In this document: piece after piece, positions 1,457 through 28,255 of the stretch
Layout of the letters: each line of letters opens with the position of its first letter
Numbering within the stretch: position 1 is the first letter of the stretch
Assembly (NCBI GenBank): GCA_025454525.1
Contig: JALOOG010000005.1
Span: 1 to 64,000 of the forward strand
Source: Anaerolineae bacterium
GTDB taxonomy: Bacteria; Chloroflexota; Anaerolineae; Aggregatilineales; Phototrophicaceae
Direction: 5' to 3'
Length of the DNA stretch: 64,000 nucleotides
Translations under genes and position numbers: made by a program
The notes under the pieces: generated by a model
Database searches by the model: none
Told to the model about the DNA's origin: nothing
The model's input: only the letters and a program-made list of their open reading frames with translations

Positions 1457-2386
1457 TTACACAGATACCACCCGCTGAAACGTGGCTAGATCCGCATTGC
1501 CCCCACTGATGACGATCACCGTCGGCCGATCGTCCAACGCGATCTGACCGCTTAACACCGCGCCCACCCCGACCGCGCCGCCCCCTTCAACCAACCAACC
1601 CTGCTCCGCGATCATCCAACGCATCGCGGACGCGATCGCGCTTTCAGACACCAACACGATCCGATCCACTAAAGCGCGGGTGATTGGGATCGTGATCGAT
1701 CCGCTTTCAATGTCCCCAGACAACGCTTCGGCCAAAGTTTCGGCTTGATGTGGGAGATTTAGACCATAAAAAGCGTTATACAGCGCGGGAGAAGACTCCG
1801 CACCCACCCCGATCACTTCGGTCGCGGGGCGCAAATGTTTGATCGCGGTCGCGATCCCACTGATCAAGCCTCCGCCGCTGACACATACCAACACCCGCGC
1901 CACTTCCGGACATTGCGCGGTAATTTCTAAGCCGATCGTGCCGGCCCCGGCGATCACTTGTGGATCATTGTAAGCAGAGACAAAGGTATAGCCTAATTCG
2001 TGCGCTAAACGCAACGCTTCATTTTCCGCATCATCGTAACCGCTACCGAATAAGATCGCTTCTGCACCGTAACGCTCAACTCCGGCGATCTTACGGCGTG
2101 GCGTATGCGGGGGCATCAGGATTTTCGCCGGAATCCCGGCAATCGCGGCCGCATACGCGACTCCTTGTGCATGATTACCAGAAGAAGCGGTGACAATCCC
2201 GGCGGTAGGGCCTAAACTTAAGATCGCGTTCAATGCACCACGCACTTTAAACGAGTGCGTGCGTTGGGTATTCTCTAATTTAAGCGAGATCTGCGGGCCA
2301 AGTCCGGGCGCATCTTCTAACAAGGTATGTTGAACATACGGCGCGATTCGTGATTGTGCTGCTACAATAGCATCATAAGCGATCAT
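1457..2386 (-). CDS. threonine/serine dehydratase-family PLP enzyme (fold type II)
   Basis: A 309-aa enzyme expected to deaminate L-threonine (to 2-oxobutanoate) or L-serine in the cytoplasm; serine racemase is a close alternative in this family. The PLP-binding lysine is K47 in SFKVRGA, the substrate loop is SSGNHAQG at 68-75, the phosphate-binding glycine loop is SGGGL at about 170-174, and SGGNAD closes the C-terminus. Length fits the catalytic domain alone: there is no C-terminal ACT domain, so no isoleucine-type feedback control is expected. The ATG at 2386 has SD AGGAG (complement of 2393-2397). It is divergent from the protease pair with only 15 bp between the start codons. Confidence 0.9.
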   Translation of the reverse strand: MIAYDAIVAAQSRIAPYVQHTLLEDAPGLGPQISLKLENTQRTHSFKVRGALNAILSLGPTAGIVTASSGNHAQGVAYAAAIAGIPAKILMPPHTPRRKIAGVERYGAEAILFGSGYDDAENEALRLAHELGYTFVSAYNDPQVIAGAGTIGLEITAQCPEVARVLVCVSGGGLISGIATAIKHLRPATEVIGVGAESSPALYNAFYGLNLPHQAETLAEALSGDIESGSITIPITRALVDRIVLVSESAIASAMRWMIAEQGWLVEGGGAVGVGAVLSGQIALDDRPTVIVISGGNADLATFQRVVSV

Positions 2387-2401
2387 CGGAGACTCCTGAT
2401 C
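2387..2401. promoter_or_regulatory. overlapping divergent Shine-Dalgarno sites
   Basis: Only 15 bp separate two divergent start codons. The near-palindrome GGAGACTCC supplies GGAG (2388-2391) to the plus-strand ATG at 2402 and AGGAG (complement of 2393-2397) to the minus-strand ATG at 2386. Promoters for each gene must therefore lie inside the opposite coding region, so the two transcripts would overlap at their 5-prime ends. Confidence 0.6.
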
Positions 2402-3931
2402 ATGATTAAACGATGGCTGATTATCCTGTTCTTGCTCTTATGCGTGCAACTGCCGGCCGAGGCGGTCAGCTTGACCCCTGACGGTGTGATCTTCCGGTTA
2501 GATCAGCCTTATCAGGGCTTGATCACCGCCCGACAAGGCGGCATATCCGGCACCATTTGGTACGGTACACTCGCCGGAGTCGATTTTAGCAGTTTTGTCT
2601 TGACCGTCGCCCCCGATCAAACGATCCTTCAAGGTATCGTCACCTTACCGGGGCGGCGTTATCAGATCCACGGGACACAGCTCACATCGATCCCGCTCCT
2701 TGAAGCGACGATCCCCTTGATCCCGATGACGATCCCCCCGTCCACCCTACCACATTGGGATGATCCCAGTCGGATCGATCTATTGGTGTTATATACCCCC
2801 GCGGCGCGGGCAATCTTGGGTGGGACGCGCCGGAGTACGATTGCGGCGATCGAAAGCACGATCGCCAATACCAACCTAAGCTTTTATCATAGTGGCGTTC
2901 CCACCCGTTTAAACCTTGTCCATACCCGCGAAACATTTTACCTGGAGCAAGCCAACGGGGTGATCACCGCTGATCTGGATCACTTCATGGGGAAAAATGA
3001 CGGCTTCATGGATGAGGCGCATTCATTACGCGATCAGCATCAAGCGGACTTGGTGATGTTGATCGCTGGTACTTGGTTTTCCACCTATCCAGGGATCGCG
3101 CCGATCCCCACGCCGCTGCATGAGTCCAAAGGGTTTAGCATCGTGGAAGCGCGGTTTTTGAGTACCGTCACCTTTGCCGAACAGGTCGGTTATCTGCTAG
3201 GTTTGACCGCGGATCCGGCGAATGCGACCACACCGCCGATGTATCCCACAGGTTACGGGTATCAAGATCCAACAGGCGCGTTTGTGACGATCATGGGAAA
3301 ACGTACTGGTGGGGTGTGTCCGCCACAATTAAATGAAAATCTGTGTCCGATGATCGAACGGTGGTCGAATCCAGCTTTGAGTGTGAACGGACGACCTACG
3401 GGGGATGTGACTTCTAACAGCGCCTTAGCGATCCAAGAGGCGTTGATCACCGTAGCCAATTATCGAAGCGCTTTCACCGGAGTCGATCTCCTGCTCAACG
3501 GCGGTTTTGAGATCGACGCGGATAACGACCGTGTGCCGGATTTTTGGAGCGCATCAGCCATGACTCCGACGGATGGAGTCCACTGTGATCTCACGGCACG
3601 CACCGGACGCTGTGCCTTGACGATCGGTGCGGTGACATTGAGTCAGCGTGTCACCTTCGGGACGGCCGATCAAGATGATCAGATCACTTTGACAGGATAC
3701 GCACAAGGGCAAAATGTGGCGGCCGGGGCCAGTCTACAATTGTTGGCGATCTATGCCAATGGGACGCGGGCGCGGATCACCCTACCGATCGCGATCGGCA
3801 CAACCCCCTATCAAAAATTAGAGGGAACGCTCACCCTCATCGGGCCGGTGAGCGCCCTGATTGTACGGGTGATCGGGGCCGGCGGTCAGGTGACATTAGA
3901 CGATCTAAGCGTGAAAGTTGAGGCACGGTGA
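2402..3931 (+). CDS. secreted reprolysin-like protein lacking the zinc site (predicted pseudoprotease)
   Basis: A 509-aa protein with an N-terminal signal peptide (MIKRWLIILFLLL..., cleavage near Ala-Glu-Ala). It is a full-length paralog of the next gene: propeptide-like region (GTIWYGTL, LPGRRY), core markers LLVLYTPAARAILGG and QADLVML, a GYQDPTGAFVTIM segment, a cysteine-rich C-x8-C patch, WSNP, and a C-terminal LLNGGFEIDAD domain of carbohydrate-binding-like appearance. At the zinc site the neighbour has HEVGHNMGSAHD but this protein reads EQVGYLLGLTAD (E260, Q261, Y264, A270), so all three zinc ligands and the catalytic Glu are gone. It lacks the Thr-Pro linker of its partner. It may be an inhibitor, chaperone or binding protein rather than an enzyme. 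Its stop overlaps the next start (TGATG). Confidence 0.85.
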   Translation: MIKRWLIILFLLLCVQLPAEAVSLTPDGVIFRLDQPYQGLITARQGGISGTIWYGTLAGVDFSSFVLTVAPDQTILQGIVTLPGRRYQIHGTQLTSIPLLEATIPLIPMTIPPSTLPHWDDPSRIDLLVLYTPAARAILGGTRRSTIAAIESTIANTNLSFYHSGVPTRLNLVHTRETFYLEQANGVITADLDHFMGKNDGFMDEAHSLRDQHQADLVMLIAGTWFSTYPGIAPIPTPLHESKGFSIVEARFLSTVTFAEQVGYLLGLTADPANATTPPMYPTGYGYQDPTGAFVTIMGKRTGGVCPPQLNENLCPMIERWSNPALSVNGRPTGDVTSNSALAIQEALITVANYRSAFTGVDLLLNGGFEIDADNDRVPDFWSASAMTPTDGVHCDLTARTGRCALTIGAVTLSQRVTFGTADQDDQITLTGYAQGQNVAAGASLQLLAIYANGTRARITLPIAIGTTPYQKLEGTLTLIGPVSALIVRVIGAGGQVTLDDLSVKVEAR

Positions 3932-5817
3932 TGATCAAGATGCGGCGGTGGGTGTATCTACTGTTATTCGGGATGATCGGCGCGGGTTTGATGATCGGGA
4001 TCGAAGCACAACCGGCCGGTTCTAATCGTCTGTTATTCGGTGAGGCGATCACCAGTCAAAGTGACTCCCGTCCCGCGCTGTTGGGAACAGAGCGGACGAG
4101 AATGGCCACAATTCAACCGGAGGCCTTACGGTTATCCGATGAATCACGGCATTTAGGGCGGGTGATCGATGATCCGGGCATCGTACTGAACTTGTTTGAA
4201 GATGTCACCTATACCGCCGTCAATACCATGATCGCAAGACGGGATCTCGGACGATCTGGTTACGTGTGGTACGGCACATTACGCGGGGTCGCTTATTCCA
4301 ACATGGTGATGATCATCGGGGATGATGGATTACACAACATTCGGATCTTGCTCCCCGGCAAAATCTATTATGTAGACTTGATCGGCGGTGAGGCTTATCG
4401 GATTAGTGAGTTGATCACCGATGGAGTGCGACAAGAAGGCCTCCCGGATTATGCGGAGGTGAACGTGACTCAACCGATGATGATCGGGCCGCGATCGGAT
4501 GACGGCAGTTTGATCGATGTGATGGTGGTCTATACGCCCGCGGCCGTGGCGATGTTAGGCAGTGTGGCCAACCTTGAGATCGCGATCGAAGGCGCGATCG
4601 CCCTCACCAATTTAAGTTTTCAAAACAGCTTGATCACCCCGCGCTTACGTCTTGTCCACATGGCCCAAGTCAACTATACCGAACGTCCCGAAACCGGCAC
4701 CGATCTAGACGAATTGACCAATCTAGACGGCCAAATGGATGAAATTCACGTATGGCGCGATACCTATCGGGCCGATCTGGTGGCCTTAGTCCCCGGTACA
4801 CCCGTCGCCCAACGCAATTATTGTGGGATCGCCTGGTTGCCTAACCAACCTGATCCCGACTTCGGCTTTAGCATCACCGAGGCATTGTGCATCGTGGATA
4901 TTACATTTGCCCATGAGGTCGGGCATAACATGGGCAGCGCCCATGACCGAGCGAACGGTGGGACAGGGCGCACCACTTACGCTTATGGGTATCAAGATCC
5001 CGCGAATCCGATCGGATCGGATTGGGCGGATTTTGTGACGATCATGGCCTATAGCAGTCACCCACAAAACACCCATTGCCCACAACGCTATCAACCGGGG
5101 GTTTGTCCGGCGATCTTGTGGTGGTCGAATCCGAATCAGACGTTTAACGGGAGTCCCTTAGGGATCAATGACGCGCTGCCGAACGGTACGAATAACACTC
5201 GCTCACTAAATGAAGCAGCGTTAGCTGTGGCCAATTACCGGATCTCATTGGACGGCGGCACGACTCCCACCGAAACCCCGGTGATCACCCCCACCAATAC
5301 CCCTTATCTGATCGGCACAGCGACTCCGACTCCGCTGCCGGGCGGGGATCTCTTGCTGAATGGTGGGTTTGAAATTGATGCCGATCTAGATGCGATCCCC
5401 GACGGGTGGAATTTACGCGGGCGGACACAACGAGTCTGTAACACGATCGATCAAGTGATCACCCCTTACGGGATGTGTAGTTTGATCTTACGTGGCGGCA
5501 CGACTCCCGGCATAAATACGCGGGCAAGTCAGACGATCGCAACGTTACGGCCACAAGCGGGGCAAACGATCAACCTTAGCGCCCAGATCAACGCGCAAAA
5601 TATCGCTACAGGCGCGTCGCTGATGCTTACTGTCACCTACTTGAACCCGATCACACCGATCAGCACGCTCACATTGCCCTTGAATGTCGGGACGTATGAG
5701 GCCAACGGATCGCTCACCCTAAACGGGCAAGTCGCACGGTTGCGCCTCACGGTCGAATATCGTGGTGCAACGGGACGGATCTATGTGGATGAGGTACGGG
5801 TGCGGTGGTTGCCATAA
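3931..5817 (+). CDS. secreted reprolysin/M12B-like zinc metalloprotease
   Basis: A 628-aa exported metallopeptidase. A signal sequence lies at residues 1-22, followed by a propeptide-like domain (VWYGTLRGVAYS, LLPGKIYYV). The catalytic domain carries the complete motif HEVGHNMGSAHD: H328, E329, H332, G335, H338, D339, as in adamalysin-type metzincins. Next come a cysteine-containing WSNP region, a Thr/Pro linker (TPTETPVITPTNTP) and a C-terminal LLNGGFEIDAD domain shared with the upstream paralog. The start is the ATG at 3931 that overlaps the previous TGA, with GAGG at 3920-3923; a GTG at 3928 is less likely. Translational coupling suggests the two products are made together and perhaps interact. 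Substrate unknown. Confidence 0.9.
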   Translation: MIKMRRWVYLLLFGMIGAGLMIGIEAQPAGSNRLLFGEAITSQSDSRPALLGTERTRMATIQPEALRLSDESRHLGRVIDDPGIVLNLFEDVTYTAVNTMIARRDLGRSGYVWYGTLRGVAYSNMVMIIGDDGLHNIRILLPGKIYYVDLIGGEAYRISELITDGVRQEGLPDYAEVNVTQPMMIGPRSDDGSLIDVMVVYTPAAVAMLGSVANLEIAIEGAIALTNLSFQNSLITPRLRLVHMAQVNYTERPETGTDLDELTNLDGQMDEIHVWRDTYRADLVALVPGTPVAQRNYCGIAWLPNQPDPDFGFSITEALCIVDITFAHEVGHNMGSAHDRANGGTGRTTYAYGYQDPANPIGSDWADFVTIMAYSSHPQNTHCPQRYQPGVCPAILWWSNPNQTFNGSPLGINDALPNGTNNTRSLNEAALAVANYRISLDGGTTPTETPVITPTNTPYLIGTATPTPLPGGDLLLNGGFEIDADLDAIPDGWNLRGRTQRVCNTIDQVITPYGMCSLILRGGTTPGINTRASQTIATLRPQAGQTINLSAQINAQNIATGASLMLTVTYLNPITPISTLTLPLNVGTYEANGSLTLNGQVARLRLTVEYRGATGRIYVDEVRVRWLP

Positions 5818-5820
5818 CAA

Positions 5821-5841
5821 GGGGGGATCGCGATCACCCCC
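5821..5841. terminator. bidirectional terminator-like hairpin
   Basis: G-run at 5821-5826 pairs with C-run at 5837-5842 around ATCGCGATCA, in the 34-bp gap between the convergent protease gene (stop 5817) and the threonine synthase fusion (stop 5852). GC-rich, without a long T-tract. Confidence 0.6.
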
Positions 5842-5851
5842 CGATTTAGCG

Positions 5852-7543
5852 TTAGAGTTTGCTCAACAGGCTGGTGACAAATTCTTCATCAATGAAGGTG
5901 CCTTTTTGCAACAGCATATCAACTTGGCTGTAGAGTTGATCACGTTCGCGGACGGTGAGTTCTTTGGCCGTGATCACCACGATCGGGATGTCATGGAGTT
6001 CTTGCGTGTTCTTCATGGTTTCGATCACGGTGAAGCCGTCCACACCGGGCATCATCAGATCGGTGATGACGAGGTGCGGAGTCCAAGCGCGGATCAAGTC
6101 AATGCCCGCCGCGCCATTATACGCGAGTCGGACTTCAACCTCCGGACGCGATTGGATGATCCGACTGATCAGGCGGGCGGCGGCCTCGTTATCTTCGATC
6201 ACCACCACGCGCTTTTTATGGGGCGAGTCGCCTAAATCCACTTTTTCTAGCGCGCTCACCAGATGCTCCGTGGGGACTTTAGGCGCAGGCGCGACATTTG
6301 AGAGATCCACCAGCTTTTGCCACTGTTCCCCTAAGATCGTCTTTTCGACAGGCATCGTATGGCCAGAGCAGTTCACCACGACCACATCATCCGGTCGGAT
6401 CACCCCCATGCGAACCAATTTAAACAGTCCGGCAAAGGTGACTCCGGTTGCAGGTTCCACGGATAAGCCTTCATTACGGGCCAAAATGCGGATCGCATTA
6501 AAGGCCTCTTCATCACTGGCAGAGGCAAAATGCCCACCATATTGTTCTGTGTAATCGTAGAGCAGTTCATAAGCGCGTCCGGGGTTGCCAGTGGCTAAGG
6601 TAGCGATGATCGTGCGTGGGTCTTCTACCGGAGTCGCGACTCGTTGTTTACGCTCAAAGGCCTCTACCATCGGCGCACAACCCGATGATTGAATAATGCC
6701 CAAGGCCGGCATCGCATCGATCAAGCCAAAATCGTACATCTCACGAAACCCTTTGCCCACGCCGATCGGCCCCATGCCGCCGCTTACCCCTTGGATAAAC
6801 CAATCAGGGGCGCGCCAAGGGGTGCCACCGCCTAACGCTTGGGCGAGTTGTTCGCCGATCTCATATGCCATGGTTTTCATCGCTTCGATCGCGGCCACGC
6901 TCTTGATCCCGCGATCTAAAAATACGCCTTTGGTTTGAGCGAATTGGGCCGCTAACACTTTCGTTTGATCATAATTGCCGGTGGTTTTGATGATCTCCGC
7001 GCCATATAATGCCGCTTCACGCATCTTATCGTTAGGGGTCAAACTAGGGAAAAATGCCCATAATTTGATGCCAGCCCGCGCACCATAAGCCGCGTAAGCG
7101 ATCGCCACGTTGCCCGTACTTGCGACCACCACCTCATTGACATCCATCTCTTTAAGGGCGGAGATTGCGACGGTGGCTTGACGGTCTTTGAAGCTACCCG
7201 TGGGGCCTTGGCGCTCATCTTTGATATAGAGATGTTTAAGGCCTAAACTTGCACCTAAGGCATCGGCCTTGATCAGCGGGGTTTGTCCTTCACCCAAGCT
7301 GACAATGTGATCGGTGTTGTAGAGTGGAAGAACTTCATGATAACGCCATAAGCTACGCCCCCGTTGGGGTAATTGTGCTAACCACGTTTGCACATCAAAA
7401 TGGTTAAAGTCGTAACGCGCTTCTACGATCACCTCACCACAAGCAGGGCAGGCCCCACTAAAATCGCGTAACTCGGTCATCGTATGGCAATAGGTACACT
7501 CTAAAACGATCCGTTTCTTGTTCATATAACGATACGTTCTCAT
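5852..7543 (-). CDS. threonine synthase fused to a C-terminal response-regulator receiver domain
   Basis: A 563-aa protein. Residues 1-435 are a complete threonine synthase: zinc-ribbon cysteines C16, C19, C32, C35; PLP lysine K119 in GPTGSFKDR; phosphate loop STGNVA (142-147); glycine loop GVSGGMGPIG (252-261); and NCSGHTMP. It should convert O-phosphohomoserine to threonine, though other phosphate-eliminating reactions are possible for this fold. Residues 444-563 are a CheY-like receiver with acidic pair E450/D451, phospho-acceptor D495 (VITDLMMPG), T525 and K547, so it appears competent for phosphorylation. A normal ThrC ends near residue 430, so the receiver is an addition. The gene is 56 bp downstream of a giant hybrid kinase on the same strand, whose last receiver it resembles (LQK followed by no proline). 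No good SD is visible; an ATG at 7525 is an alternative start. Confidence 0.9.
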   Translation of the reverse strand: MRTYRYMNKKRIVLECTYCHTMTELRDFSGACPACGEVIVEARYDFNHFDVQTWLAQLPQRGRSLWRYHEVLPLYNTDHIVSLGEGQTPLIKADALGASLGLKHLYIKDERQGPTGSFKDRQATVAISALKEMDVNEVVVASTGNVAIAYAAYGARAGIKLWAFFPSLTPNDKMREAALYGAEIIKTTGNYDQTKVLAAQFAQTKGVFLDRGIKSVAAIEAMKTMAYEIGEQLAQALGGGTPWRAPDWFIQGVSGGMGPIGVGKGFREMYDFGLIDAMPALGIIQSSGCAPMVEAFERKQRVATPVEDPRTIIATLATGNPGRAYELLYDYTEQYGGHFASASDEEAFNAIRILARNEGLSVEPATGVTFAGLFKLVRMGVIRPDDVVVVNCSGHTMPVEKTILGEQWQKLVDLSNVAPAPKVPTEHLVSALEKVDLGDSPHKKRVVVIEDNEAAARLISRIIQSRPEVEVRLAYNGAAGIDLIRAWTPHLVITDLMMPGVDGFTVIETMKNTQELHDIPIVVITAKELTVRERDQLYSQVDMLLQKGTFIDEEFVTSLLSKL

Positions 7544-16292: not shown

Positions 16293-18509
16293 TTATTCTA
16301 AATCATCACTATAGTGGCCGTTAGTTTTGCTGGTGTTATGGGTTAGGTTAAGCCGGATGTTCACTTCTGGCAAACGCAAGGCCTGCCCCACTTCACGCAC
16401 AGCGGTTTGTAAGATGTCGTCAATATCGGTTTGTCCGGTCAATTGTGAAGCGATGTAGTTCACGATCCGCTCCCGTTCGGTGGAGCGTTGGCTTTGTTGG
16501 AACAAGCGTGCATTGTCTAAGCTGATCGCGAGACGGCTCACCAATTCTTCGGCCAATTGCACCTTCTCGTAAGTGTAATCGGTTGAGCGGATCTCCCATT
16601 CCACCGCACCGAGTGTCTGGCCACGTAATTGGATCGGCACTGCAAACGGGATCGTATTTTGTGGGGTGATCTTGCCGATCTGGGTTTTGCCTTCCCAAAT
16701 CGCTCGGTCATAAAGTTCTGTGCGTGTTTGATCTATCGGGAGGCCCGCGTTGGCAGTCAGTTGTTTAGCGCGATTGGCATACAGGTATTCTTGCCATGCG
16801 GCAAAGGTCTTTTCGCGGCCGGTAGCGGTGATCTCCTCCAAGCGGCGGATCGACTCTTCATACAATCGGGCGTTATCCAAGCTAATCGCGATCTGATCGG
16901 CCATCACCTGTAACAATTTGACTTGATCATCGCTAAAGCTGTTGTCTTGTTTGCTCTGTACGTCTAACGCGCCGATGATACGCTCTCCAACCCGCAAAGG
17001 GATCGCCAATTCGGAGCGCGTTTCCATCAAAAACTCGTTACGTTTATGCACTTCACTGCTGGTAATATCGCGCACGAGGGTAAGACGACCGTCTCCGGTC
17101 ACTTGACCGATCACACTGGTACTCCCGATGGCGAGTCGATGTCCCCGCGCTAATAATTGTCGCCCGGCCTCTCCGGTGCTGGCACGCAACACCGCGTAGA
17201 TCCCCTCGCTATCGTTTAAAAAGATCTGCGCGTGATAGATATTCGGGAATTGTTGCACGATCAAATTGACCACATTATCCATCAATTTTTGGAGATCGCG
17301 TTCGGTGGACGCGGCGCGGCTGACTTCTTGGGTCGCTTGCACATCTCGCACGCGGGCAGCGACATTTTCTTGTAAACCGGCGATCGTCTCACGGATCTGT
17401 TCACGCACGCTCACTAAGGTTTGTGCCAATAACCCGATCTCATCTGTGCGAGAGCGGGATGCAAGCGGAGTCTCAAAATTTCCCCGGGCCACTTCTTGTA
17501 AGGCTAACCGCATCTCATTCAGCGGATTAGCGAGTAATGTCCCCAAAAAGGCCGCAAAAATCACCACCAACCCCACCAAAATCAAACTGATTAACAGACC
17601 GCCCTCGCTGATAAATTCTTGGAAAGGCGGTGAAAAGGTGATCTCTTCTAGAGTTTCGGTGATCAAGATCAAACGGGTATTCGGGATCGTAGCGTAATGG
17701 GTGGTAAATTGATCGTCAGCGATGGCAGCGGTCGTAACGCGGGTTTGTCCGGTCAACCCTTGTTGAATAAACGGATGACGGCGCGATTCTTCCGCAAGAT
17801 CCATAAATTCTTCTGGGGCGATGATCAAATTATCCGCTGTCGTCAAATAACTATATACAGGGGCAAAGGTAGACAAGCTGATCAAGTTATTGATCAAAAT
17901 TTGATCATTGTTGAGTGTCGCGATGATATAACCCGCTAAACGCCGATCCCCGTAGTAAACCACCTGCACAATATCGATAATGATCTGATCGTTTTCAGTG
18001 TAGATCACGATCCGCTGTGATTCATTTAACAAGCGTGCGCTTTGCCCGGCCAAATAGGACGGCGAATCAGAGAAATCGCGTCCGTCTAAGCGATTGGTGG
18101 ATCGGGTGGTGATCGTATTGCCCATTACGACCCCATCGGCATTTAAGAAGCGCACATCGCGGTAAAAATTCGGTTCAACCAACCGATCAAAAAACAGGCT
18201 GATGATCTCTTGACGGGTGGAGCGATCGTTGCGACCTTCAAACAGGTTGATCAAGGTGCGCCGATAGCGCAAGTTTTCAGTAAGCGAATTGAGTAATTCG
18301 GTACTTTGGCGTAATGAGAAGGTGAGCCGCGCCAAGCGTTCTTCGCCCACCTGTTGCACATAACGTTCGGTGATGTTTTGATCACGAGTTTCCGCACTCC
18401 GTTGCAAGGTGATCAACACCAGCAACACCGGAATCAAGGTCAAAAGCGCCAAAAAGAATAACAATTTGCTCTGAATTGACCAGTGATTGATATTTAGTAA
18501 GGTTCTCAT
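16293..18509 (-). CDS. membrane Cache/HAMP-GAF protein without kinase domain
   Basis: A 738-aa protein: TM1 at about 17-38, an extracytoplasmic sensor of about 260 residues with Cache-like features (VRFLNADGVVMG, LAGYIIATL), TM2 at about 303-325, HAMP at 326-378 (NPLNEMRLALQEVARGNF, DEIGLLAQTL), a full GAF at about 405-545 (STGEAGRQLLARGHRLAIG, ALDVQSK, ISLDNARLYEE), and a W-containing linker (FAAWQEYLYANR). A shorter GAF-like module ends in AISLDNARLFQQ, and a C-terminal tail ends in EVNIRLN. No HisKA, ATPase, GGDEF or methyl-accepting region is present, so it can only signal through partners. It overlaps the upstream gene by 4 bp (ATGA) and precedes the hybrid kinase by 14 bp, implying co-translation and a shared complex. 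Confidence 0.88.
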   Translation of the reverse strand: MRTLLNINHWSIQSKLLFFLALLTLIPVLLVLITLQRSAETRDQNITERYVQQVGEERLARLTFSLRQSTELLNSLTENLRYRRTLINLFEGRNDRSTRQEIISLFFDRLVEPNFYRDVRFLNADGVVMGNTITTRSTNRLDGRDFSDSPSYLAGQSARLLNESQRIVIYTENDQIIIDIVQVVYYGDRRLAGYIIATLNNDQILINNLISLSTFAPVYSYLTTADNLIIAPEEFMDLAEESRRHPFIQQGLTGQTRVTTAAIADDQFTTHYATIPNTRLILITETLEEITFSPPFQEFISEGGLLISLILVGLVVIFAAFLGTLLANPLNEMRLALQEVARGNFETPLASRSRTDEIGLLAQTLVSVREQIRETIAGLQENVAARVRDVQATQEVSRAASTERDLQKLMDNVVNLIVQQFPNIYHAQIFLNDSEGIYAVLRASTGEAGRQLLARGHRLAIGSTSVIGQVTGDGRLTLVRDITSSEVHKRNEFLMETRSELAIPLRVGERIIGALDVQSKQDNSFSDDQVKLLQVMADQIAISLDNARLYEESIRRLEEITATGREKTFAAWQEYLYANRAKQLTANAGLPIDQTRTELYDRAIWEGKTQIGKITPQNTIPFAVPIQLRGQTLGAVEWEIRSTDYTYEKVQLAEELVSRLAISLDNARLFQQSQRSTERERIVNYIASQLTGQTDIDDILQTAVREVGQALRLPEVNIRLNLTHNTSKTNGHYSDDLE

Positions 18510-20188
18510 ATCAACATATCACTCCGTTCAGCGTCAGCCACTACGGACGGTTGCAGGTGGATGCGCGTGCTAATCGCGCCCAACGCTTCGTTAAAGCTGG
18601 CCGCGGCCACATTCATCACCGCCTCAACATTGGTCGCACTGATCAACAGGTTTGTGGCTTCATTGGCCTTGCGTTCGCGTTTCGCTTGGGCTTGGGTCTG
18701 CTCAAACAAGCGTTTATTTTCGAGTGCCAACGCCAAACGATCGGCCACAATTTGCGCTGTCTCCAGTTGACGCTCACTCAAAACCCGATCTTTCGGAAGG
18801 GTAAACGACATCGCGCCCAAAATCTCACCGCGTAGATTGATCGGCACATTGACGATCTTCAGATCGCCTTCATGGTTAATCTGGAGTGCGCCCGTCTCTA
18901 ACACCGGACGCAACGAGGCAGGCAGATCGCCGGCGGCAATAAATTTTCCGTCATTTGCGAGGTTAAAGCCGAATAAGGCTTCTCCGCGCTGCCGCAAATA
19001 CCCTTCCCATGAACTGCCCCCTACCAATTCGGAGCTAAGCTCTTGCAAACGTAAGCGGAGCGTATTGGTGATCTCCACTTGTTCGCGGATGTTTTGACGC
19101 AAGGCCGCATTTAACCGGAGGTTGGCAATCGTGGATGAAAGTCCCTCGCTTAATGCTTGTAACACGCGCAGATCTTCCGGTGTGATCATCTCGCGTTCGG
19201 TTTGAATATCCAACACCCCTAACAAACGCCCTTGCGCGATCAATGGTAAGGCGATCCCTAAGTAGGAAGATGTCCAAAAGTGAGAGCGGCGCAACTCCCC
19301 GCTATCCTCAACCGTTGCGATCACCAATTGACCTGTTTGTGCGGCCTCATCGATCAAACTGCCTTGGATCAAGCGCACATCCTGACTCCGATCCGAAGCC
19401 GCCCGTACCCCTAAACCGGCCCGCACACGCCGACTCAAGGTGCCGTCTGTGGCGATATAAAACACTTGGGCAAAGACATAATCCAATTCATCGCGGATAA
19501 ACAAGATCGTCTCTGCATAAGCATCTTCTTCATCGGTCACAGTCAATTGTTGCAAAAAGCGATTGACCTTCTGTAACGAGTCGATCTCACGGCGATTTAC
19601 GCGCACTGTGCGGATCGTGGTGCTGTTTAAGAACGATAACAAGACCATAGCAACCGATATTGTTAACAGAATCGTGATAAAATCAATATTGACGCGGTTG
19701 GCTGGGATCACCGGTTGAGTCAATTGGCTTTGGGAATAAGCGGCAAATAACAGAATCCCCAATAACAGCACCCACAGGTAAAACAGATAAACGGGGCGCT
19801 CAAACAGCGTTCCGGCCACAATAATCGGGATGATCAGCAAGATAAACGCGCTCCCGAACAAGCCGCTTAAGGCGATATTGCTCATGGCCAGCAACATCTC
19901 AAACAAGATCAACCAGATCGCGGTGGTCAAACGTCCGCTTTGGATCATCCAAAAGGCCCCCAAGGTGAAGATCGTGGCCAAGATGATCAACGGGAGCGCA
20001 AACTCATAGACAGCAGTTGATAAGATCAATTCGGGTGGGATCAAGAGGACGGATAAGACTAGGCCCGCCAATTGAAGCAAAAATAATACCCAATTGCTCA
20101 CCAACAGCGTTTGAGCGCGTTGAATGTCCAAGGGATCGCGATAGCGATAACGGACGGTAAATAGAAAGCGCGGATCAAGATTATTCAT
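18506..20188 (-). CDS. polytopic membrane GAF protein without kinase domain
   Basis: A 560-aa protein with about six TM helices in the first 200 residues (for example NWVLFLLQLAGLVLSVLLI and AFILLIIPIIVAGTLF), then a GAF domain (FAQVFYIATDG, GVLDIQTE, STIANLRLNAAL), a W-linker (SSWEGYLRQR), a short GAF-like module (GEILGAMSFTLP, ALALENKRLFEQ) and the tail ending in STRIHLQ. The compact helical sensor suggests detection within or near the membrane instead of a large periplasmic domain. There is no catalytic output domain. It overlaps the upstream gene by 8 bp and the downstream one by 4 bp, so the four membrane GAF genes are translationally linked. Confidence 0.87.
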   Translation of the reverse strand: MNNLDPRFLFTVRYRYRDPLDIQRAQTLLVSNWVLFLLQLAGLVLSVLLIPPELILSTAVYEFALPLIILATIFTLGAFWMIQSGRLTTAIWLILFEMLLAMSNIALSGLFGSAFILLIIPIIVAGTLFERPVYLFYLWVLLLGILLFAAYSQSQLTQPVIPANRVNIDFITILLTISVAMVLLSFLNSTTIRTVRVNRREIDSLQKVNRFLQQLTVTDEEDAYAETILFIRDELDYVFAQVFYIATDGTLSRRVRAGLGVRAASDRSQDVRLIQGSLIDEAAQTGQLVIATVEDSGELRRSHFWTSSYLGIALPLIAQGRLLGVLDIQTEREMITPEDLRVLQALSEGLSSTIANLRLNAALRQNIREQVEITNTLRLRLQELSSELVGGSSWEGYLRQRGEALFGFNLANDGKFIAAGDLPASLRPVLETGALQINHEGDLKIVNVPINLRGEILGAMSFTLPKDRVLSERQLETAQIVADRLALALENKRLFEQTQAQAKRERKANEATNLLISATNVEAVMNVAAASFNEALGAISTRIHLQPSVVADAERSDMLI

Positions 20189-21797
20189 GGGAAGGTTGAC
20201 CGTTTGTCTCGACGTTACCTAAACGAATTGTACCCTGTTCTGCACCTAATGTCGCAAGCAATTCAGACATCGTAATCTTAAGTAGATCATCTACGGTTTG
20301 TGCGGATTGATACCGTTCTACAATTGAGCTGACGTATTGTTCTTGTGTGGCGGATTGTTGCACTTCCTCAAACAAGCGCACGTTATCCAAACTTACGGCC
20401 AAGTTTTGCGCGACCGATTGCACCATTTCCACCAGGTCATTTTCCCGTAAGGCCTCGGTGGTCACTTCGATCGCACCTAGCACTTCCCCGCGCAAGATAA
20501 TCGGCACGGCCGTCGTTTTTTGTTCACCTTGTCGGTGTGTGATCGGGCGTAAGTCATCTACGGCCTGCCTCATGCCGTCTGACCACTGGACTTCAGTCGA
20601 AAGTCGGTTATTTTCTAAACGCACACCGACGATCGTCTCTTTGGTGTCAAGGTATTTATCCCACGCTTGACGGGTCAATTGACGGTTTAGGCGTTGGATC
20701 TCTCGTAGGTTGATCTGTGCCTCTAACAGCAAGCGTTTGTTATCTTCAACATTGATCGCTTGTTGACGGAAAGAGCGGGCGTTGCGGATCGCGCTACCAA
20801 GCAAGTTACTCATCACCTGTAACGCTTGAGTCTCAATGGCGGTGAAGACGTTGGGGCGCGTGCTTTGCACATCTAACGCGCCGATGATGCGTTCCCCGTC
20901 CACAATCGGCAAGGCCATTTCGGCCCGGGTGTTGGATAGTAACTCATTCGCCATGTGGATCACGTTTTGATCGGTATCGCGTACCACGATCACCTGTCCT
21001 AATTGGGTGACCCGGCCGATCACACTTTTTGACCCGACTTCCAATTTATGCCCGCGGATCAATAAACGTTGACCGATCTCCCCCGTGCTGGCGACCAGTC
21101 TCGCCCATTTGCGCTCATCATCCACCAAAAAGATCTGCACATGGTAAAACCCAAAACGCTCGCGGATCAAGTTGACGGCCCGCTCAAACAATTGATCCAA
21201 GTCCAGCACATTTGAGATCACTTGGCCGATCTCCGCCGTTGCTTGCAACAAGTTACTGGTTTGCACCGAAGTTTCTGTAATGCGTTCAGCGGTGGTCACA
21301 AAGAACCGTGTCGCAATACTCACGATCAACAACGCGCCGATCGAACCCGTGAGCAGAAACAAGCCGCCTAACGTTTCGATCAACAAGAGGTTGGTCAACA
21401 ATCGCGCAAAGATGATCATATTTAGCGCAAAATAGATCAAGCGCGGTGAGATCCCAAATAAACGCGGGCTAAACGCGGCCGCTAAAGAAAGCAAAAGCGC
21501 CGCGCTTAAAAATTGGATGTAACCCTGCTCCGACACAATCAGATTAAATAACAAGATCGCCATGATCAAATTCGCGGCGATCGTATAACTCCGCCGTTGG
21601 ATCAACAAACCTAACGCGCTAATGGTGACCTGTAAGATCAGCGCGATCAAGGTGGCGTTATTCGCGGTTTGTGCGAAGGCATAGAGGATCGCGATCTCTA
21701 ACAATCCGCCGAACAGCGATAAGGTGAGTAGGATCGTCAAAAATCGTTGCCGTAAATCCACAATTGGATTCGAGGAGGTAGCCGCTCTTATTCCCAT
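20181..21797 (-). CDS. polytopic membrane GAF protein without kinase domain
   Basis: A 538-aa protein: about six to seven TM helices up to about residue 165, a full GAF (FGFYHVQIFLVDD, STGEIGQRLLIRGHKLEVG, MALPIVDGERIIGALDVQS), the linker LNRQLTRQAWDKYL, a short GAF-like module (VPIILRGEVLGAIEV, LAVSLDNVRLFEE) and the tail (LLKITMSELLATLGAEQG then IRLG). The GAF is the closest in sequence style to those of the 738-aa protein and of the kinase, which points to duplication within the operon. No output domain. It overlaps both neighbours (10 bp upstream, 8 bp downstream). Confidence 0.87.
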   Translation of the reverse strand: MGIRAATSSNPIVDLRQRFLTILLTLSLFGGLLEIAILYAFAQTANNATLIALILQVTISALGLLIQRRSYTIAANLIMAILLFNLIVSEQGYIQFLSAALLLSLAAAFSPRLFGISPRLIYFALNMIIFARLLTNLLLIETLGGLFLLTGSIGALLIVSIATRFFVTTAERITETSVQTSNLLQATAEIGQVISNVLDLDQLFERAVNLIRERFGFYHVQIFLVDDERKWARLVASTGEIGQRLLIRGHKLEVGSKSVIGRVTQLGQVIVVRDTDQNVIHMANELLSNTRAEMALPIVDGERIIGALDVQSTRPNVFTAIETQALQVMSNLLGSAIRNARSFRQQAINVEDNKRLLLEAQINLREIQRLNRQLTRQAWDKYLDTKETIVGVRLENNRLSTEVQWSDGMRQAVDDLRPITHRQGEQKTTAVPIILRGEVLGAIEVTTEALRENDLVEMVQSVAQNLAVSLDNVRLFEEVQQSATQEQYVSSIVERYQSAQTVDDLLKITMSELLATLGAEQGTIRLGNVETNGQPSHE

Positions 21798-23500
21798 GAT
21801 TCATGATCCTCTGTTTTGGCTACCGTAGCGGTCGGTTTACCTAAGTGAATCACGACTCGTCCGGCCTTGAGGGCTTCGCGCAAGCTCCGCGCCGCTTCAG
21901 AAAGAGTCGCGTCTACGCTATTGGTGGTCTGTAAGCGGGCGTTGATCTGATTCACGATCGCTTCACGTTGCGCCACGCGCTGACTTTCTTCCACGAGACG
22001 GGTATTTTCGGCCGCGAGTCCAAACCGCTCTCCCACGTCTTGGATCAGTTCAAAGTCCTCTGGGGTAAAGGTGCGCTCTGGGTCAAGTTCAAATTCCATT
22101 GCGCCGATGATCTGACCCCGCACGCGCAATGGCACGGCGATCACTTGGGCCTCTTGGGTGACTTCTTGGATCAGATGATTTTGTTGGGTGGCGCTTTGTA
22201 AGGCGTTCGTCCAATTGGCTTCACGGATCATCTGTTCCGTTTGATAATCGACCACCAATCCCAGTTGATCATCCAAGTTTTGGAAGTATTGGGCCCAAAC
22301 ATTGCCCGTTAAGCGCTGATTCAAACGCTCCACATCGCGTAATGTCTTGCGCGTTTGTTCCACTAACATATCGTTTTCGCGCAAGCGGCTTTCAGCGCGC
22401 TCAAATTGTTGCAGGTTGTCGATATTCAACGCGGTGTTATCGGCCAAAACTCGGAACAAACGTTTGATGTGATCCGCTTGGAAAACCTGTGGGCGCTCAC
22501 TGATTAACTCAATTGTCCCCAAGATCTGATCGCCGATCTGAAGCGGGAAAAACGCCTCGGTAGCGGTGCGATCGCGAATATTTTCACTATTTTGGATCGT
22601 TTCGCGTCCGTTGAGCAACGCATCCGCTAACGCCCCGCTGATAGCATTCAACTTGATCGTAGACGGGTAAACTTGCCCCAAAATACTTAAACCGGAGTCG
22701 CCAAGGATGTCGACTTCTAAGCGATTGCCGTTGAGTAGATAGATGCGGGTGCGTTGCACAAAGTCAAATTGTGAGGTGATCTGTTGGGCTAAAGATTGCA
22801 TCACCTCCCGTAGCGATCGCCGTTGCACCACCTGCTTAGACACCTCGCTTAAGATCAAATTCAACTGTTCACGTTCATCGATCGCTTCACCGATCTCTTG
22901 TGAAAGCGAGACTCGGAACAAACGTAAAAACAGCCAGATCATCAACACCCCGCCGAAAAGCTGATTCAGCATGGCGATCACCGTTTCGGCGTTTTCGACC
23001 GACAACAAAAACGGTTCTTTAAGCAAATAGGCGATCACCACCGTGAGCAGACTCAAGGCGGTACTGATCACCAACCCGCGTTGTTGATATAACAAGCTGG
23101 CCATCAGGATGAACAATAACAGCGAGTTTGTGCTAGACTGTAACAATGGCGAGGCGTAAATTTGTAAGGACACCCCGCTAACATACCACATGACCAACAA
23201 GGTCAATTTGCCAATGTTCAAATACCCGAAACGCACTGCCCCCACAATCAACACGGCGCAAAAGTAGATCGACCCGAACATAAATGTGACCAACGGATCG
23301 AGTTGACCATATTGGAGGACAGCGGTCAGCAAGGGCAAAAAACCACTCGGCGTATACCATTGGGGGACAGACAAGCCATAGAACGTATACAACACCAAGA
23401 TCACCACCATCACCCCGTAGACCATGCGTGCCTCGCTACGGGCTAACTGGGTGGGATATTGTTTGATGTTTAACACTTGTTCACTAAGTCGCGCCAACAT
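21788..23500 (-). CDS. polytopic membrane GAF protein without kinase domain
   Basis: A 570-aa protein with about six to seven TM helices in residues 26-200, then a divergent GAF (TRIYLLNGNRLEVDILG, GDQILGTIELISERP, ALNIDNLQQFERAE), the linker LNQRLTGNVWAQYF, a short GAF-like module (VPLRVRGQIIGAMEFEL, GLAAENTRLVEE) and the tail (LSEAARSLREALKAGRVVIHLG). It follows the 1581-aa GAF protein after 9 bp and overlaps the next gene by 10 bp. The first of the four membrane members in transcription order. No catalytic domain; role inferred as a sensory subunit. Confidence 0.86.
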   Translation of the reverse strand: MLARLSEQVLNIKQYPTQLARSEARMVYGVMVVILVLYTFYGLSVPQWYTPSGFLPLLTAVLQYGQLDPLVTFMFGSIYFCAVLIVGAVRFGYLNIGKLTLLVMWYVSGVSLQIYASPLLQSSTNSLLLFILMASLLYQQRGLVISTALSLLTVVIAYLLKEPFLLSVENAETVIAMLNQLFGGVLMIWLFLRLFRVSLSQEIGEAIDEREQLNLILSEVSKQVVQRRSLREVMQSLAQQITSQFDFVQRTRIYLLNGNRLEVDILGDSGLSILGQVYPSTIKLNAISGALADALLNGRETIQNSENIRDRTATEAFFPLQIGDQILGTIELISERPQVFQADHIKRLFRVLADNTALNIDNLQQFERAESRLRENDMLVEQTRKTLRDVERLNQRLTGNVWAQYFQNLDDQLGLVVDYQTEQMIREANWTNALQSATQQNHLIQEVTQEAQVIAVPLRVRGQIIGAMEFELDPERTFTPEDFELIQDVGERFGLAAENTRLVEESQRVAQREAIVNQINARLQTTNSVDATLSEAARSLREALKAGRVVIHLGKPTATVAKTEDHESWE

Positions 23501-23509
23501 AAGCTCTGA

Positions 23510-26500
23510 TTACTCCGTCTTGGGCGGTAAACTGGTTTGAGTGCCGAGTCGAATCCGCCCGCGTTTTGCCCCTAACGCCCGGCCTAACTCGCCCATCGTG
23601 ACGTTTAAAATCCCGTCTAGATCGATCTGGCGTTGAAGTTGCGTGGTGATCTCGTTGACCAAGGCCTTACTCCGGGCGACTCGTTGGCTTTGGGTATAGG
23701 CCTCGGCATTTTCTAGCGCGCCGCCTAATTGTGATACCAATTGACGGAAGATCAATTGATCGGTCTCGCTATAGGCAAATGGTTTTAACGCGCTTACCTC
23801 TAAGATCCCAATTGCCATACCCCGTGTGAAAATCGGTAACGCTAACACCGATTCCATTTCGCGATCAAACAGGTGTTTCACCGCCGTTTGATCGGACATC
23901 ACCGGAAGATAGACAAAACTCTCGCCTTGTGTGATCCGTTCAGCGGCGCTGCCTGTGAGGTCAATCGGACGGGAAACGGTGTTTAATTCCCCTTGGGTAT
24001 AGGTCATCGCGAGTTGCGGCGTGCGTTGTTCAATCGGCAATAAGATCACAGCGACTTGATCGGCGGTGATGATCTTAGGGGTTTCTTGTACCACCGTGAT
24101 CAACATCGACTCGACATCAAATTGGGTTTGTAAAGTTTGTCCAATCGTGGCTAAGCGTTGCAATTGAGCGGCTTGACGTTGAGCGGCCTGTAATTGGCGC
24201 AAGTTTTGTAAGCTGATGATCAATTGCGCGGTGATCGCACGGGCGGTATCCACCATTTCATTCGTAATCTGGCGTTCGGGGTTCAGAATATCCAACCCAA
24301 CCGACCCGATCAATTGATTTTGCGCGTCGATCATCGGTAAGATCAACATGGAATAAATATTGAGCGCCGACATCATCGCTTTAGTTCCAGCGGAAATCCG
24401 CGAGTCCGTGGGAATATCGCGCAACAAAACGGGTTGCTTGGTTTGACGTAACAGACTTTGGATCTCGTCCTCACCTTCGATCTTAAACCCGACCATGCGA
24501 TCATCGGTCAACGGATATTCGCTAACGACCGTGGAGGTTTTCCCGTCCGGGTTGATCATCGCCACACCCACATGATCGATCCGTAAGGCGGTGACTAACG
24601 CTTGGGCCGCATCATCGATCAAGATGCGTTCATCGCGGGTATTGATCATGCTAAGCGTCAATTGATTTAAGGTTTGTAAGATGCGAACTTGGTTGCCCAA
24701 TTGCGCGGCGCTGTTACGGGTATCGCGCAACAAGCGTTGATTTTGTAACACGATCGTCAATTGATCGCGTAAAGCGCTGTACAGACGGCGTTGTGAGAGG
24801 TTAAACGCACGCGGTTTTGTGAATAACACCATGATCTGCTGTTTGACCTGATCGTATTCCATGATCGGGATCAACACTGCGCTCACGATCTTCGGCCCAG
24901 CTGCATCGTATAACTGGAACAACTGCACATAACGCCGATCGTTGATCTGTTCTAAAAACAGGATCTCTTGTGCATTTTTTTGAAGATCACCGCCGATCGC
25001 GCTCAACAGCTCCGTGCCGAGTGAGGGATGCAACGGGGTTTGTAAACGAACCGTCTTGCCTTCTGCATCGATCACCGAGTCGATTACAAAGGTGGTCAGT
25101 TGTTCGGTGATCAGGTCATACTCCAAGGCGTTTAAGGTGATCTGATACGCATCATTTGCGATCAGATCGTGGATCAACCGGAGTACCTCTAAGGGATCGG
25201 AGGCCCCCACTAGGGCATTATTGACATCATACAGGCGTAAAATTTCCTCAAACGATTGTTCCGCTTGTTCCAATAAGTAGCGATTTTCCAATGTGATCGC
25301 CATTTGATCGGATAACGTGCGTAAAGCCCGTAAGTTATTCGGCGCAATCTCAACCGGATGATCGGCCTTAAGTGTCACCAAGCCGATCAAGGTGCGCTTA
25401 GAGGAAAGCAACGGCAAACTCAAGCTAAATTTATCCGGGCTTTGTAGCACATCCCGCGTAGGTTGCAGATCGGGTGGGACGGGATAACTGATAATCGTGC
25501 CGGTGGTGCTATTGGCTTCAACCAAGGAGCCATCTACATCCAATTGCGCCACGATCCGCACATAATCGGGGGCTTCAGAGTCAATAATGCCAATTTCGGC
25601 CCGTTGATAGCTGGGATTGGTTAAGCGAGTAAGCGCGCTCAACATTTCCGCAGGGCCACTCGCACGATACACCGCGTTGCTGGTTTCATATTGCAAGGCC
25701 ACGGAATTTAGTGTATCGGTGGTTTGATTGATCAAAAAGCGATTTTCCACCGCCACCGCGATCTGACTGGCAATCGCACGCAAGTGATCCCGTTGTAAGT
25801 CGGTGAGGGCGCTCAATTTAGAAGTCGCAAAAGCGACCACCCCTAATACCCGCGCTCCGACGCGCAATCCGATCCCGATATAACTGTTCATGCCGCGTGC
25901 TAAGAGCGTACTCACGTAATTGGGCATCAGTAACCGCCGATATTGCCGAATGTCGTCAATCACCAAGAGTTCATTATCGACAAAGGTCTTAAAAACTCCG
26001 GTTTTTTCTAACATTTCCGGGTCTAACGTATCGATCACATCGGGATGAGCGACCTCATCGCGGGTAGCGAGGGTGACGATGCGAATCGATTGCGGCGGTT
26101 CTTGCAGGGTGCTAGGCTCATTAAATAACATCAATGCGGCCAATTCGATCGCTTCTGGTAGATTGGCGATAATGGCCCGCATCATCTCATCGTAATCGTC
26201 CGCAGTGGAAACCGCTAGGTTGACATCCACCAATTGCGAGGCGATCGCGTAAGCGGTTTCGGATTCGGTGAACAATTGCCGCCCACGCAAACTCACACCG
26301 ATCTGATCGGCCACGGTCGAAAACGCTTCCATTTCTTCATTCGACAGCGGGTACGCTTGTGAATGTAACAGGTTTAAAGTGCCGATCACCCGTTCATCGC
26401 TCCGAATCCCAAACAGCGCGCCCCATTGTAGCCCTTGTGCGTTCCACCAAACTTGTAACGCTTCGGGTTGTTGATCAACGTCGGTGATCAACGGCAAATT

Positions 26501-28255
26501 GCTAAACAAGCGGCTGATCTGCTCACCCGAAAATGGCGCGGGGTAACGAACAGAGGTCTCGATCATTATCACATCGTTCGCATCGCTTGCCCCGATGATC
26601 TGTTGGGTGGTGGGGACATCCCCAAAAGCGACGGGCGGCTCAAACAGGTGGATCGTCACCACTTTCAGTTGACGGGCTAAAGTATAGATGATCGCTTGGG
26701 CGACCGCCGAAGCATCTGAGGCCGCCACGACCAGACGATTCGCTAATAAGAGGTTATCGATCAATTGCCGCGATGATCGGGTTTGTTCCAAAAGTTGACG
26801 CACTTGGATCAGCGTTCCCATTTGTTCGGCGATGCTGATAAAGGCATTGGTCTCATCGCGTCCAAAGGCGATCTCTTCGCGATTCAAGATCACCAATACG
26901 GCCACGGTGCGCTCATTTAAGGTAATCGGAATGCAATAGTACGCTTTGATCCCGTTTTCGATCAACCATTGAGCCAGCTCAAGGCCGGCAATTTCTTCAA
27001 CATTAGGCGTGATATTTTCGAGGAAAAATGCTTCGCCCTCTTTGATCTTAAGCCAAAATTCGCGTTTGAGTTCGTTTAACGGCACGACAAAATTTTCATT
27101 CCAACGATAAGACGCAAGTCGATTCGCACTCGCCAACACCCGCCAACCGCTCATTTCGCCTTGCGCGTCATATAAAATTTCGTTGATCGCTAAGAACCGA
27201 CCCTTTTGCGGCAGCATGTGTTGAGCAATGATCCCGGCCATTTCGTCGAAATTTTGACCTGCGACCAATTCATTGATCGCCCGTTTTTGCCGTTCGCTGA
27301 TCGCTTGCCGATAATCCGATTGTTCCGATACCTGCCCCAATTGGATCAACCCGGCCACTTGATCCGAAATACTCTGATAAGCTTCCATCTCGGTTTGTGC
27401 CAAAAACAGCGGATCGGCCGTGCTGTTGATCGAGATAAACCCCAACACATCATCGCGTGAGATCAACGGGAAGGAACAGATCCCCATCACCCCCACATTT
27501 TGTAGCCATTGGATCACATACGATGAGATCGAAGTTTCGCTATTGACATCGCTCACCAATGTGAAACGCCGCGCATAATAAATTTCGCTGGCTAACATCC
27601 CCATCTGTTCAACGGTAAAACCAGTAAGGCTTTGATCCGTATCAAAAGCGGCCTTACGATTGGCCGTAGCGATCACTTTGAACCCGTTCACCGTGTTCGT
27701 TTCGTCATAAGTGAACAGGTTGATCGAGATAAATTGTCCGCGCCGAAGCAGATACTTCGCTAGGATCGCGGCGATCTGACGAAAGGTAGTAGAGCGGGTG
27801 AGTTCACTGGAGATCTGTCCCAGTTGATGCGAGAGGGTGCGTAAAGTACGAATATCCAACGCTTGGGCCAATAACGCGCCGATCAACATCAACCATTCGC
27901 GGATGTCTGGGTGTTCATCAGAAGTAACGCTCACCTCTAGCCAACGAAATGAGGCGTTATCACAAGCCAACGGCACTAACCATCGCCCGATCTCGTAGAT
28001 CGGTTCTGTGTGTTGGATGATCTGTGACCATTGCGGATCGCTTTCCAATTGGATCAAGCCGACTCCGCTTTTTTCGCCGATCTCCGCGCCCAACCACACA
28101 TAGCGTTCATTTTGGTGATACAAGCGTAGCGAGTCCGTAGCGATCCTCAACTGCACGTATCGGACGGCTAATTGTAGCAGGTCGGCGATCTCCTGATTGC
28201 CTTGCGCCCATTGATCGAAGGTCGCGATCATCTCTAATTGGGTAGCTACGCTCAT
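23510..28255 (-). CDS. soluble multi-GAF scaffold protein without kinase domain
   Basis: A 1581-aa protein with no signal peptide or TM segment and about nine GAF-type modules. Successive module ends include LTIVLQNQRLLRD, AVAVENRFLINQ, AITLENRYLLEQ, ISLQNLRQLQ and GALENAEAYTQSQ. The first, at the N-terminus, looks incomplete. It ends with the same tail as the four membrane GAF proteins (QRQIDLDGILNVTMGELGRA, then RGRIRLG). There is no HisKA, ATPase, receiver or nucleotide cyclase. Start ATG at 28255 with GAGG upstream. It lies 48 bp after a receiver gene and 9 bp before the membrane GAF run. The linked helices between modules suggest a long rod; it may connect the membrane sensors to the kinase or bind several small ligands. 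Both are inferences. Confidence 0.88.
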   Translation of the reverse strand: MSVATQLEMIATFDQWAQGNQEIADLLQLAVRYVQLRIATDSLRLYHQNERYVWLGAEIGEKSGVGLIQLESDPQWSQIIQHTEPIYEIGRWLVPLACDNASFRWLEVSVTSDEHPDIREWLMLIGALLAQALDIRTLRTLSHQLGQISSELTRSTTFRQIAAILAKYLLRRGQFISINLFTYDETNTVNGFKVIATANRKAAFDTDQSLTGFTVEQMGMLASEIYYARRFTLVSDVNSETSISSYVIQWLQNVGVMGICSFPLISRDDVLGFISINSTADPLFLAQTEMEAYQSISDQVAGLIQLGQVSEQSDYRQAISERQKRAINELVAGQNFDEMAGIIAQHMLPQKGRFLAINEILYDAQGEMSGWRVLASANRLASYRWNENFVVPLNELKREFWLKIKEGEAFFLENITPNVEEIAGLELAQWLIENGIKAYYCIPITLNERTVAVLVILNREEIAFGRDETNAFISIAEQMGTLIQVRQLLEQTRSSRQLIDNLLLANRLVVAASDASAVAQAIIYTLARQLKVVTIHLFEPPVAFGDVPTTQQIIGASDANDVIMIETSVRYPAPFSGEQISRLFSNLPLITDVDQQPEALQVWWNAQGLQWGALFGIRSDERVIGTLNLLHSQAYPLSNEEMEAFSTVADQIGVSLRGRQLFTESETAYAIASQLVDVNLAVSTADDYDEMMRAIIANLPEAIELAALMLFNEPSTLQEPPQSIRIVTLATRDEVAHPDVIDTLDPEMLEKTGVFKTFVDNELLVIDDIRQYRRLLMPNYVSTLLARGMNSYIGIGLRVGARVLGVVAFATSKLSALTDLQRDHLRAIASQIAVAVENRFLINQTTDTLNSVALQYETSNAVYRASGPAEMLSALTRLTNPSYQRAEIGIIDSEAPDYVRIVAQLDVDGSLVEANSTTGTIISYPVPPDLQPTRDVLQSPDKFSLSLPLLSSKRTLIGLVTLKADHPVEIAPNNLRALRTLSDQMAITLENRYLLEQAEQSFEEILRLYDVNNALVGASDPLEVLRLIHDLIANDAYQITLNALEYDLITEQLTTFVIDSVIDAEGKTVRLQTPLHPSLGTELLSAIGGDLQKNAQEILFLEQINDRRYVQLFQLYDAAGPKIVSAVLIPIMEYDQVKQQIMVLFTKPRAFNLSQRRLYSALRDQLTIVLQNQRLLRDTRNSAAQLGNQVRILQTLNQLTLSMINTRDERILIDDAAQALVTALRIDHVGVAMINPDGKTSTVVSEYPLTDDRMVGFKIEGEDEIQSLLRQTKQPVLLRDIPTDSRISAGTKAMMSALNIYSMLILPMIDAQNQLIGSVGLDILNPERQITNEMVDTARAITAQLIISLQNLRQLQAAQRQAAQLQRLATIGQTLQTQFDVESMLITVVQETPKIITADQVAVILLPIEQRTPQLAMTYTQGELNTVSRPIDLTGSAAERITQGESFVYLPVMSDQTAVKHLFDREMESVLALPIFTRGMAIGILEVSALKPFAYSETDQLIFRQLVSQLGGALENAEAYTQSQRVARSKALVNEITTQLQRQIDLDGILNVTMGELGRALGAKRGRIRLGTQTSLPPKTE

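Follow-up and report, generated by a model that had tools for sequence, protein, structure and literature searches.

A threonine synthase-like PLP domain joined to a receiver domain in Chloroflexota, a putative enzyme output of a two-component system

What might a phosphorylatable receiver domain do at the end of a protein that resembles threonine synthase (ThrC)? The question is raised by a gene found in 64,000 nucleotides of DNA from an Anaerolineae bacterium, the whole of that stretch being called the window here. It was originally predicted that the gene encodes a threonine synthase fused to a receiver, which would allow a sensor kinase to control amino acid synthesis post-translationally. 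The answer favoured here, at a probability of about 0.6, is that the protein is a response regulator specific to its phylum, the output of which would be a PLP enzyme derived from ThrC and tuned by kinase phosphorylation of D495.

The fusion gene and its distribution

The gene is a single reading frame of 563 codons without internal stops, it lies on the minus strand (a point absent from the original prediction), and the matches of its product to PF00291 and PF00072 both exceed the Pfam gathering score (Table 1), with a CxxC...CxxC ribbon N-terminal to the PALP and receiver domains. The first claim, that the two domains are joined in one chain, is thus borne out. Met7 is an alternative start because conservation begins only near residue 8-12. 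The key residues that had been named as intact are all present and, in an alignment of 71 fused relatives, conserved: K119, C16, C19, C32, C35, D451 and D495 are invariant, position 450 is E or D, position 525 is T or S, and K547 is K in 70 of the 71 with a gap in the other. The set of residues expected of a response regulator receiver (D495, E/D450-D451, T/S525 and K547) is therefore complete.

The AlphaFold2 model of the protein has a mean pLDDT of 85.7 and two confidently predicted domains, between which no contact or allosteric route is visible, the linker being long and poorly predicted. The length of this linker in fused relatives is 33-53 residues, counted between positions 403 and 443. 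The hairpin that follows the stop codon is consistent with an operon ending there, although a pattern scan near the fusion gene found promoter- and terminator-like sites at no more than chance frequency. Convergent to the fusion gene are two adjacent, overlapping ORFs on the plus strand, 2354-3931, which has no Pfam match, and 3928-5817, which has Reprolysin-like metalloprotease domains.

Table 1. Coordinates of the features discussed, in positions of the window
Feature	Position	Strand	Remarks
Terminator-like hairpin	5822..5842	-	directly 3' of the fusion stop codon; 1 found vs 1.6 expected by chance
ThrC-like PALP-REC fusion gene	5852..7543	-	563 aa; start at Met1 or Met7
Receiver domain, residues 444-563	5855..6214	-	PF00072 at 446-532, E 5.5e-16
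Phosphoacceptor D495	6059-6061	-	in receiver; conserved in relatives
Linker, about residues 396-439	6227..6358	-	low confidence, probably flexible; pLDDT mostly <50
PALP domain (PLP fold type II, ThrC-like), residues 81-393	6365..7303	-	PF00291, E 6.3e-71
Loop SGGMGP	residues 254-259	-	within PALP domain
PLP lysine K119	7187-7189	-	within PALP domain
Zn-ribbon region (C16, C19, C32, C35), residues 16-35	7439..7498	-	invariant in 71 aligned fused relatives
Predicted cognate kinase, 2892 aa	7600..16278	-	multi-GAF, HisKA (H2375), HATPase, two C-terminal RECs; domain search and synteny
Five tandem genes (738, 560, 538, 570 and 1581 aa)	16293..28255	-	short gaps or overlaps; lead into the kinase gene

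A search for the combined PALP and receiver architecture, as the original prediction had proposed, finds that the fusion is far from unique to the window. In a sample of 298 genomes of the same class, 117 have a match at 1e-60 or better and about 96, from 23 family codes, carry the full-length fusion (counted from the match table). Outside the class, fused genes occur in the genome G307 and in six genomes of one genus (g218, which belongs to another class and includes G395). Fused and unfused proteins are well separated in the search of the phylum sample, with fused matches at 760 bits or more and unfused ones at 300 bits or less.

The same unbroken architecture is found across many independent assemblies, complete chromosomes included, and the 115 distinct fused sequences used to compare the PALP part also come from many assemblies. 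At four loci where no fusion ORF had been picked, tblastn places both halves in one reading frame. Relatives with the two halves as split genes were looked for and none were seen, nor were there any unfused members on the fused side of the tree. A misassembly, a frameshift or split relatives, any of which the original prediction saw as fatal to the fusion, are thus not borne out.

In a tree built from the PALP part, a single branch (SH-aLRT 100) has every unfused sequence on one side, and the fused clade is set off from canonical ThrC by a long stem. As the fused forms all lie on one side of that branch, the simplest reading is that the fusion arose once. Purifying selection acts on the PALP and receiver halves alike, the median dN/dS being 0.033 for PALP and 0.040 for the receiver, with 0.071 for the linker (47 pairs). 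In a scan of all phyla, almost every one of the best 80 of 556 relatives has Chloroflexi or Anaerolineae in its title, the two exceptions being a Bacteroidetes MAG (L078), which differs from the fusion of L077 by a dN of only 0.025, and a Pleurocapsa MAG (L089), and both records are probably misnamed or misbinned. The fusion is a conserved trait of the Chloroflexota, mainly of the Anaerolineae, its confinement to the phylum resting on these best 80 of 556 relatives. A plasmid search gave as its sole match one receiver-free ThrC and no fusion.

Two types of fusion can be told apart. The window gene is of type A, about 560 aa with one receiver, and the same genome has on another contig (C207) a type B gene with two receivers, 706 aa long from its first start, the product of which is 47-48% identical to the type A protein. 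Type B does not form a clean clade in the PALP-part tree. An ORF of 1695 aa in G096 (L050, 8138-13225) was considered as a kinase and fusion in one chain and dropped, its N-terminal 1010 residues having no Pfam match; it is probably a type B fusion preceded by a stretch of the GC-rich kinase gene upstream that has been translated out of frame, as judged by eye from the translation.

The kinase and the surrounding operon

A histidine kinase gene lies alongside the fusion gene, as is expected for the cognate kinase of a response regulator, with 56 nt between it and the fusion gene downstream, and its SHELRTP, NLVSNA, DTGIGI and GTGLGL motifs are intact. This neighbour had been taken to make a regulatory link plausible, and the point has gained weight since the order of kinase and fusion is seen again in other families and in a further class. 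A gene for a GAF-histidine kinase is found directly upstream of the fusion at 60 of 79 type A loci and 10 of 14 type B loci, with a median gap of 8.5 nt and frequent overlaps of 4 nt, and in the genus g218 the order is GAF-histidine kinase, fusion, receiver. Further upstream in the window, GAF domains were found in the three genes scanned of the five that lead into the kinase gene, and this tandem array is the probable sensory part of the fusion operon. Sensory genes, kinase and fusion taken together make an unusually large operon of about 22 kb.

What follows the fusion is more variable. A REC-HisKA-HATPase gene is downstream of type A at 47 of 80 loci, an EamA transporter gene is downstream of the fusion at 49 of 69, and a stand-alone receiver gene follows type B at 11 of 14. 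The REC-kinase and EamA genes are missing from the downstream position in the window operon, which counts against the reading favoured here. So does a further possibility, that the main target of the upstream kinase may be its own two receivers. In a receiver tree of 122 columns only, and weak for that reason, the fused receivers cluster with the last receiver of the neighbouring kinase (support 88), and in the same short and weak tree the downstream stand-alone receivers cluster with the receiver of the REC-kinase (support 99).

The role of the PLP domain

The direction in which information flows through the protein is the point at which the strongest rival parts from the favoured reading. 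PLP-fold domains also serve as sensors, for example in MocR-type regulators, and the PALP half could be an input, with a PLP-bound amino acid reporting the level of a metabolite by altering phosphorylation or dephosphorylation of the receiver. Besides that precedent, the many signalling parts at these loci (multi-GAF proteins, several receivers and in many cases a second kinase) would suit such a sensor, as would the clustering of the fused receivers with a kinase's own receiver. Against it, the PLP lysine, the loop that holds the PLP phosphate and many other PALP residues are invariant and no other segment of the protein is under such strong constraint, as would be the case in a working enzyme, although a sensor that forms an aldimine would also require much of this conservation. 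On balance we consider a sensory role unlikely.

If the PALP half is instead an enzyme, it might be a true threonine synthase acting on O-phosphohomoserine under the control of the kinase, as was originally predicted. The likeness to ThrC is considerable. Residues 8-400 of the AlphaFold2 model match Arabidopsis ThrC (2c2b) with a Z of 44.5, ThrC being the closest solved fold, and Foldseek aligns the same model to Aquifex ThrC with a TM of 0.82. The protein thus has the fold and the PLP lysine of a threonine synthase, and alignment to ThrC finds the catalytic lysine (K119) and the S-T-G-N active-site loop in 115/115 fused proteins. The score against TIGR00260 sits at the cut-off of 167.1, being 165.7 or 167.5 in two runs.

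The site for the substrate phosphate is a different matter. T88, S155, R160 and N188 of Thermus ThrC, which we take to be the contacts to this phosphate, are replaced in 115/115 fused proteins by V/A/K, G, A/G/S/T/C and G respectively, and the GNxGN of ThrC has become SGGxGP, again in 115/115. Canonical ThrC of the same phylum retain the T, S and R as well as GNxGN, and a separate profile comparison of fused proteins with ThrC aligns the same altered columns. These replacements speak against the claim that the PALP half is a threonine synthase, as does the long stem that sets the fused clade apart.

The genomic context points the same way. The original prediction had asked for a second, receiver-free thrC in the genome, and one is present on contig C172, where it scores 268-269 bits against TIGR00260 and adjoins a homologue of thrB, the homoserine kinase gene; the fused gene is neither beside thrB nor the genome's sole thrC, as might be expected of a threonine synthase gene. 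Of 48 genomes that carry the fusion and are at least 90% complete, 41 or more (table count) also have a protein without a receiver that scores over the TIGR00260 cut-off. Given these other genes and the replaced residues, it is unlikely that the fused protein is the housekeeping threonine synthase, and control of threonine synthesis by phosphorylation, whilst possible, is not the likeliest reading and is to our minds quite improbable. There is a risk of misannotation, as the best-fitting models for fused proteins are those of threonine synthase, a name that they could wrongly be given.

Other receiver-free PALP genes occur near fusion loci. One in the window (1457-2386, minus) is on the strand of the fusion and about 3.5 kb beyond it, and its product resembles threonine/serine dehydratases, the best model being TIGR01127 at a score below cut-off. 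In one family, two genomes also have a ThrC-like gene without a receiver next to the fusion locus (L199, 5366-6577, PRK08197-type, and L201, 6802-8028).

It might also be argued that the receiver does not regulate at all and serves passively as a sink for phosphate or a relay station, which the fusion only localises whilst the enzyme is constitutive. The long, low-confidence linker and the several other receivers of the operon would fit this, yet the two halves have stayed in one protein even between deeply diverged members, none of which was seen split or unfused, and the switching residues T/S525 and K547 are conserved, so that the proposal appears very unlikely. That two genes were joined by an artefact of assembly or annotation, in support of which nothing was found, is refuted by the uninterrupted relatives and can be dismissed.

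Under the favoured reading, that of a response regulator with a ThrC-derived enzyme as its output, signals sensed by the GAF proteins would set the state of the kinase, and D495 would then receive its phosphate either from the kinase directly or by relay through the kinase's own receivers or, where there is one, the following REC-kinase, with the receiver pair and the stand-alone receiver taking part in type B. The phosphorylated receiver, on its flexible tether, may alter the activity or the assembly of the PLP domain. Since the phosphate site has been lost from a domain that still has the lysine and the S-T-G-N loop, its substrate is probably an amino acid that lacks the gamma-phosphate of O-phosphohomoserine, and the EamA-type transporter of many relatives may carry substrate or product. 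A bolder version, which is speculative and rather unlikely, is a phylum-wide two-component system that acts through a switchable PLP enzyme and not through gene control, to make or destroy a small molecule derived from an amino acid, possibly a signal that the EamA protein of many members would export, by an activity new in the ThrC family.

If the favoured reading is true, a whole class of the Chloroflexota, many of its members uncultured, uses His-Asp phosphorylation to steer a metabolic enzyme directly. Such a system would also be a clean case in which to test how two-component signalling controls metabolism post-translationally, with a PLP activity that is probably uncharacterised.

Relation to known systems

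Three groups of known proteins come close to the enzyme half. With ThrC (TIGR00260; 1v7c, 2c2b, 2d1f, 6nmx) the fused protein shares its fold (Z 37-44 over about 315-380 residues), the PLP lysine in SFKDR and the S-T-G-N loop, and it differs in its receiver, the altered phosphate residues, SGGxGP, a separate clade and the lack of an adjoining thrB. The receiver-free proteins of NF006050 (PRK08197) in the same phylum share the Zn ribbon and PALP but have no receiver and form a separate clade. This is the best-fitting NCBIfam model, at 275.7 bits for the window protein and 240-276 for fused forms against a cut-off of 303, whereas one free protein reaches 576. Cysteate synthase and CapA2 (9k3c; TIGR03844) have the same ThrC-family fold, with a Z of 40.4 over 383 residues, but no receiver, and fused proteins score only 103-133 bits (102.8 for the window protein) against the TIGR03844 cut-off of 324.9.

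Receivers on standard metabolic enzymes are already known, the examples being narrowly distributed, and their partners include pyruvate phosphate dikinase, thioredoxin reductase, KaiC-like and glycosyltransferase domains (PMC5847659, citing Galperin 2006 and 2010). A literature search for a fusion of PALP or ThrC to a receiver gave no report, an earlier mention in Galperin 2006/2010 being possible. The principle of a receiver on a metabolic enzyme is therefore not new (PMC5847659), and what appears to be new here is a PALP output with an operon conserved across a class. Like the proteins of PMC5847659, the fused protein joins a receiver to an enzyme and is restricted to a lineage; it differs from them in its PALP/ThrC-like partner, its C-terminal receiver, its class-wide occurrence and its conserved multi-gene operon.
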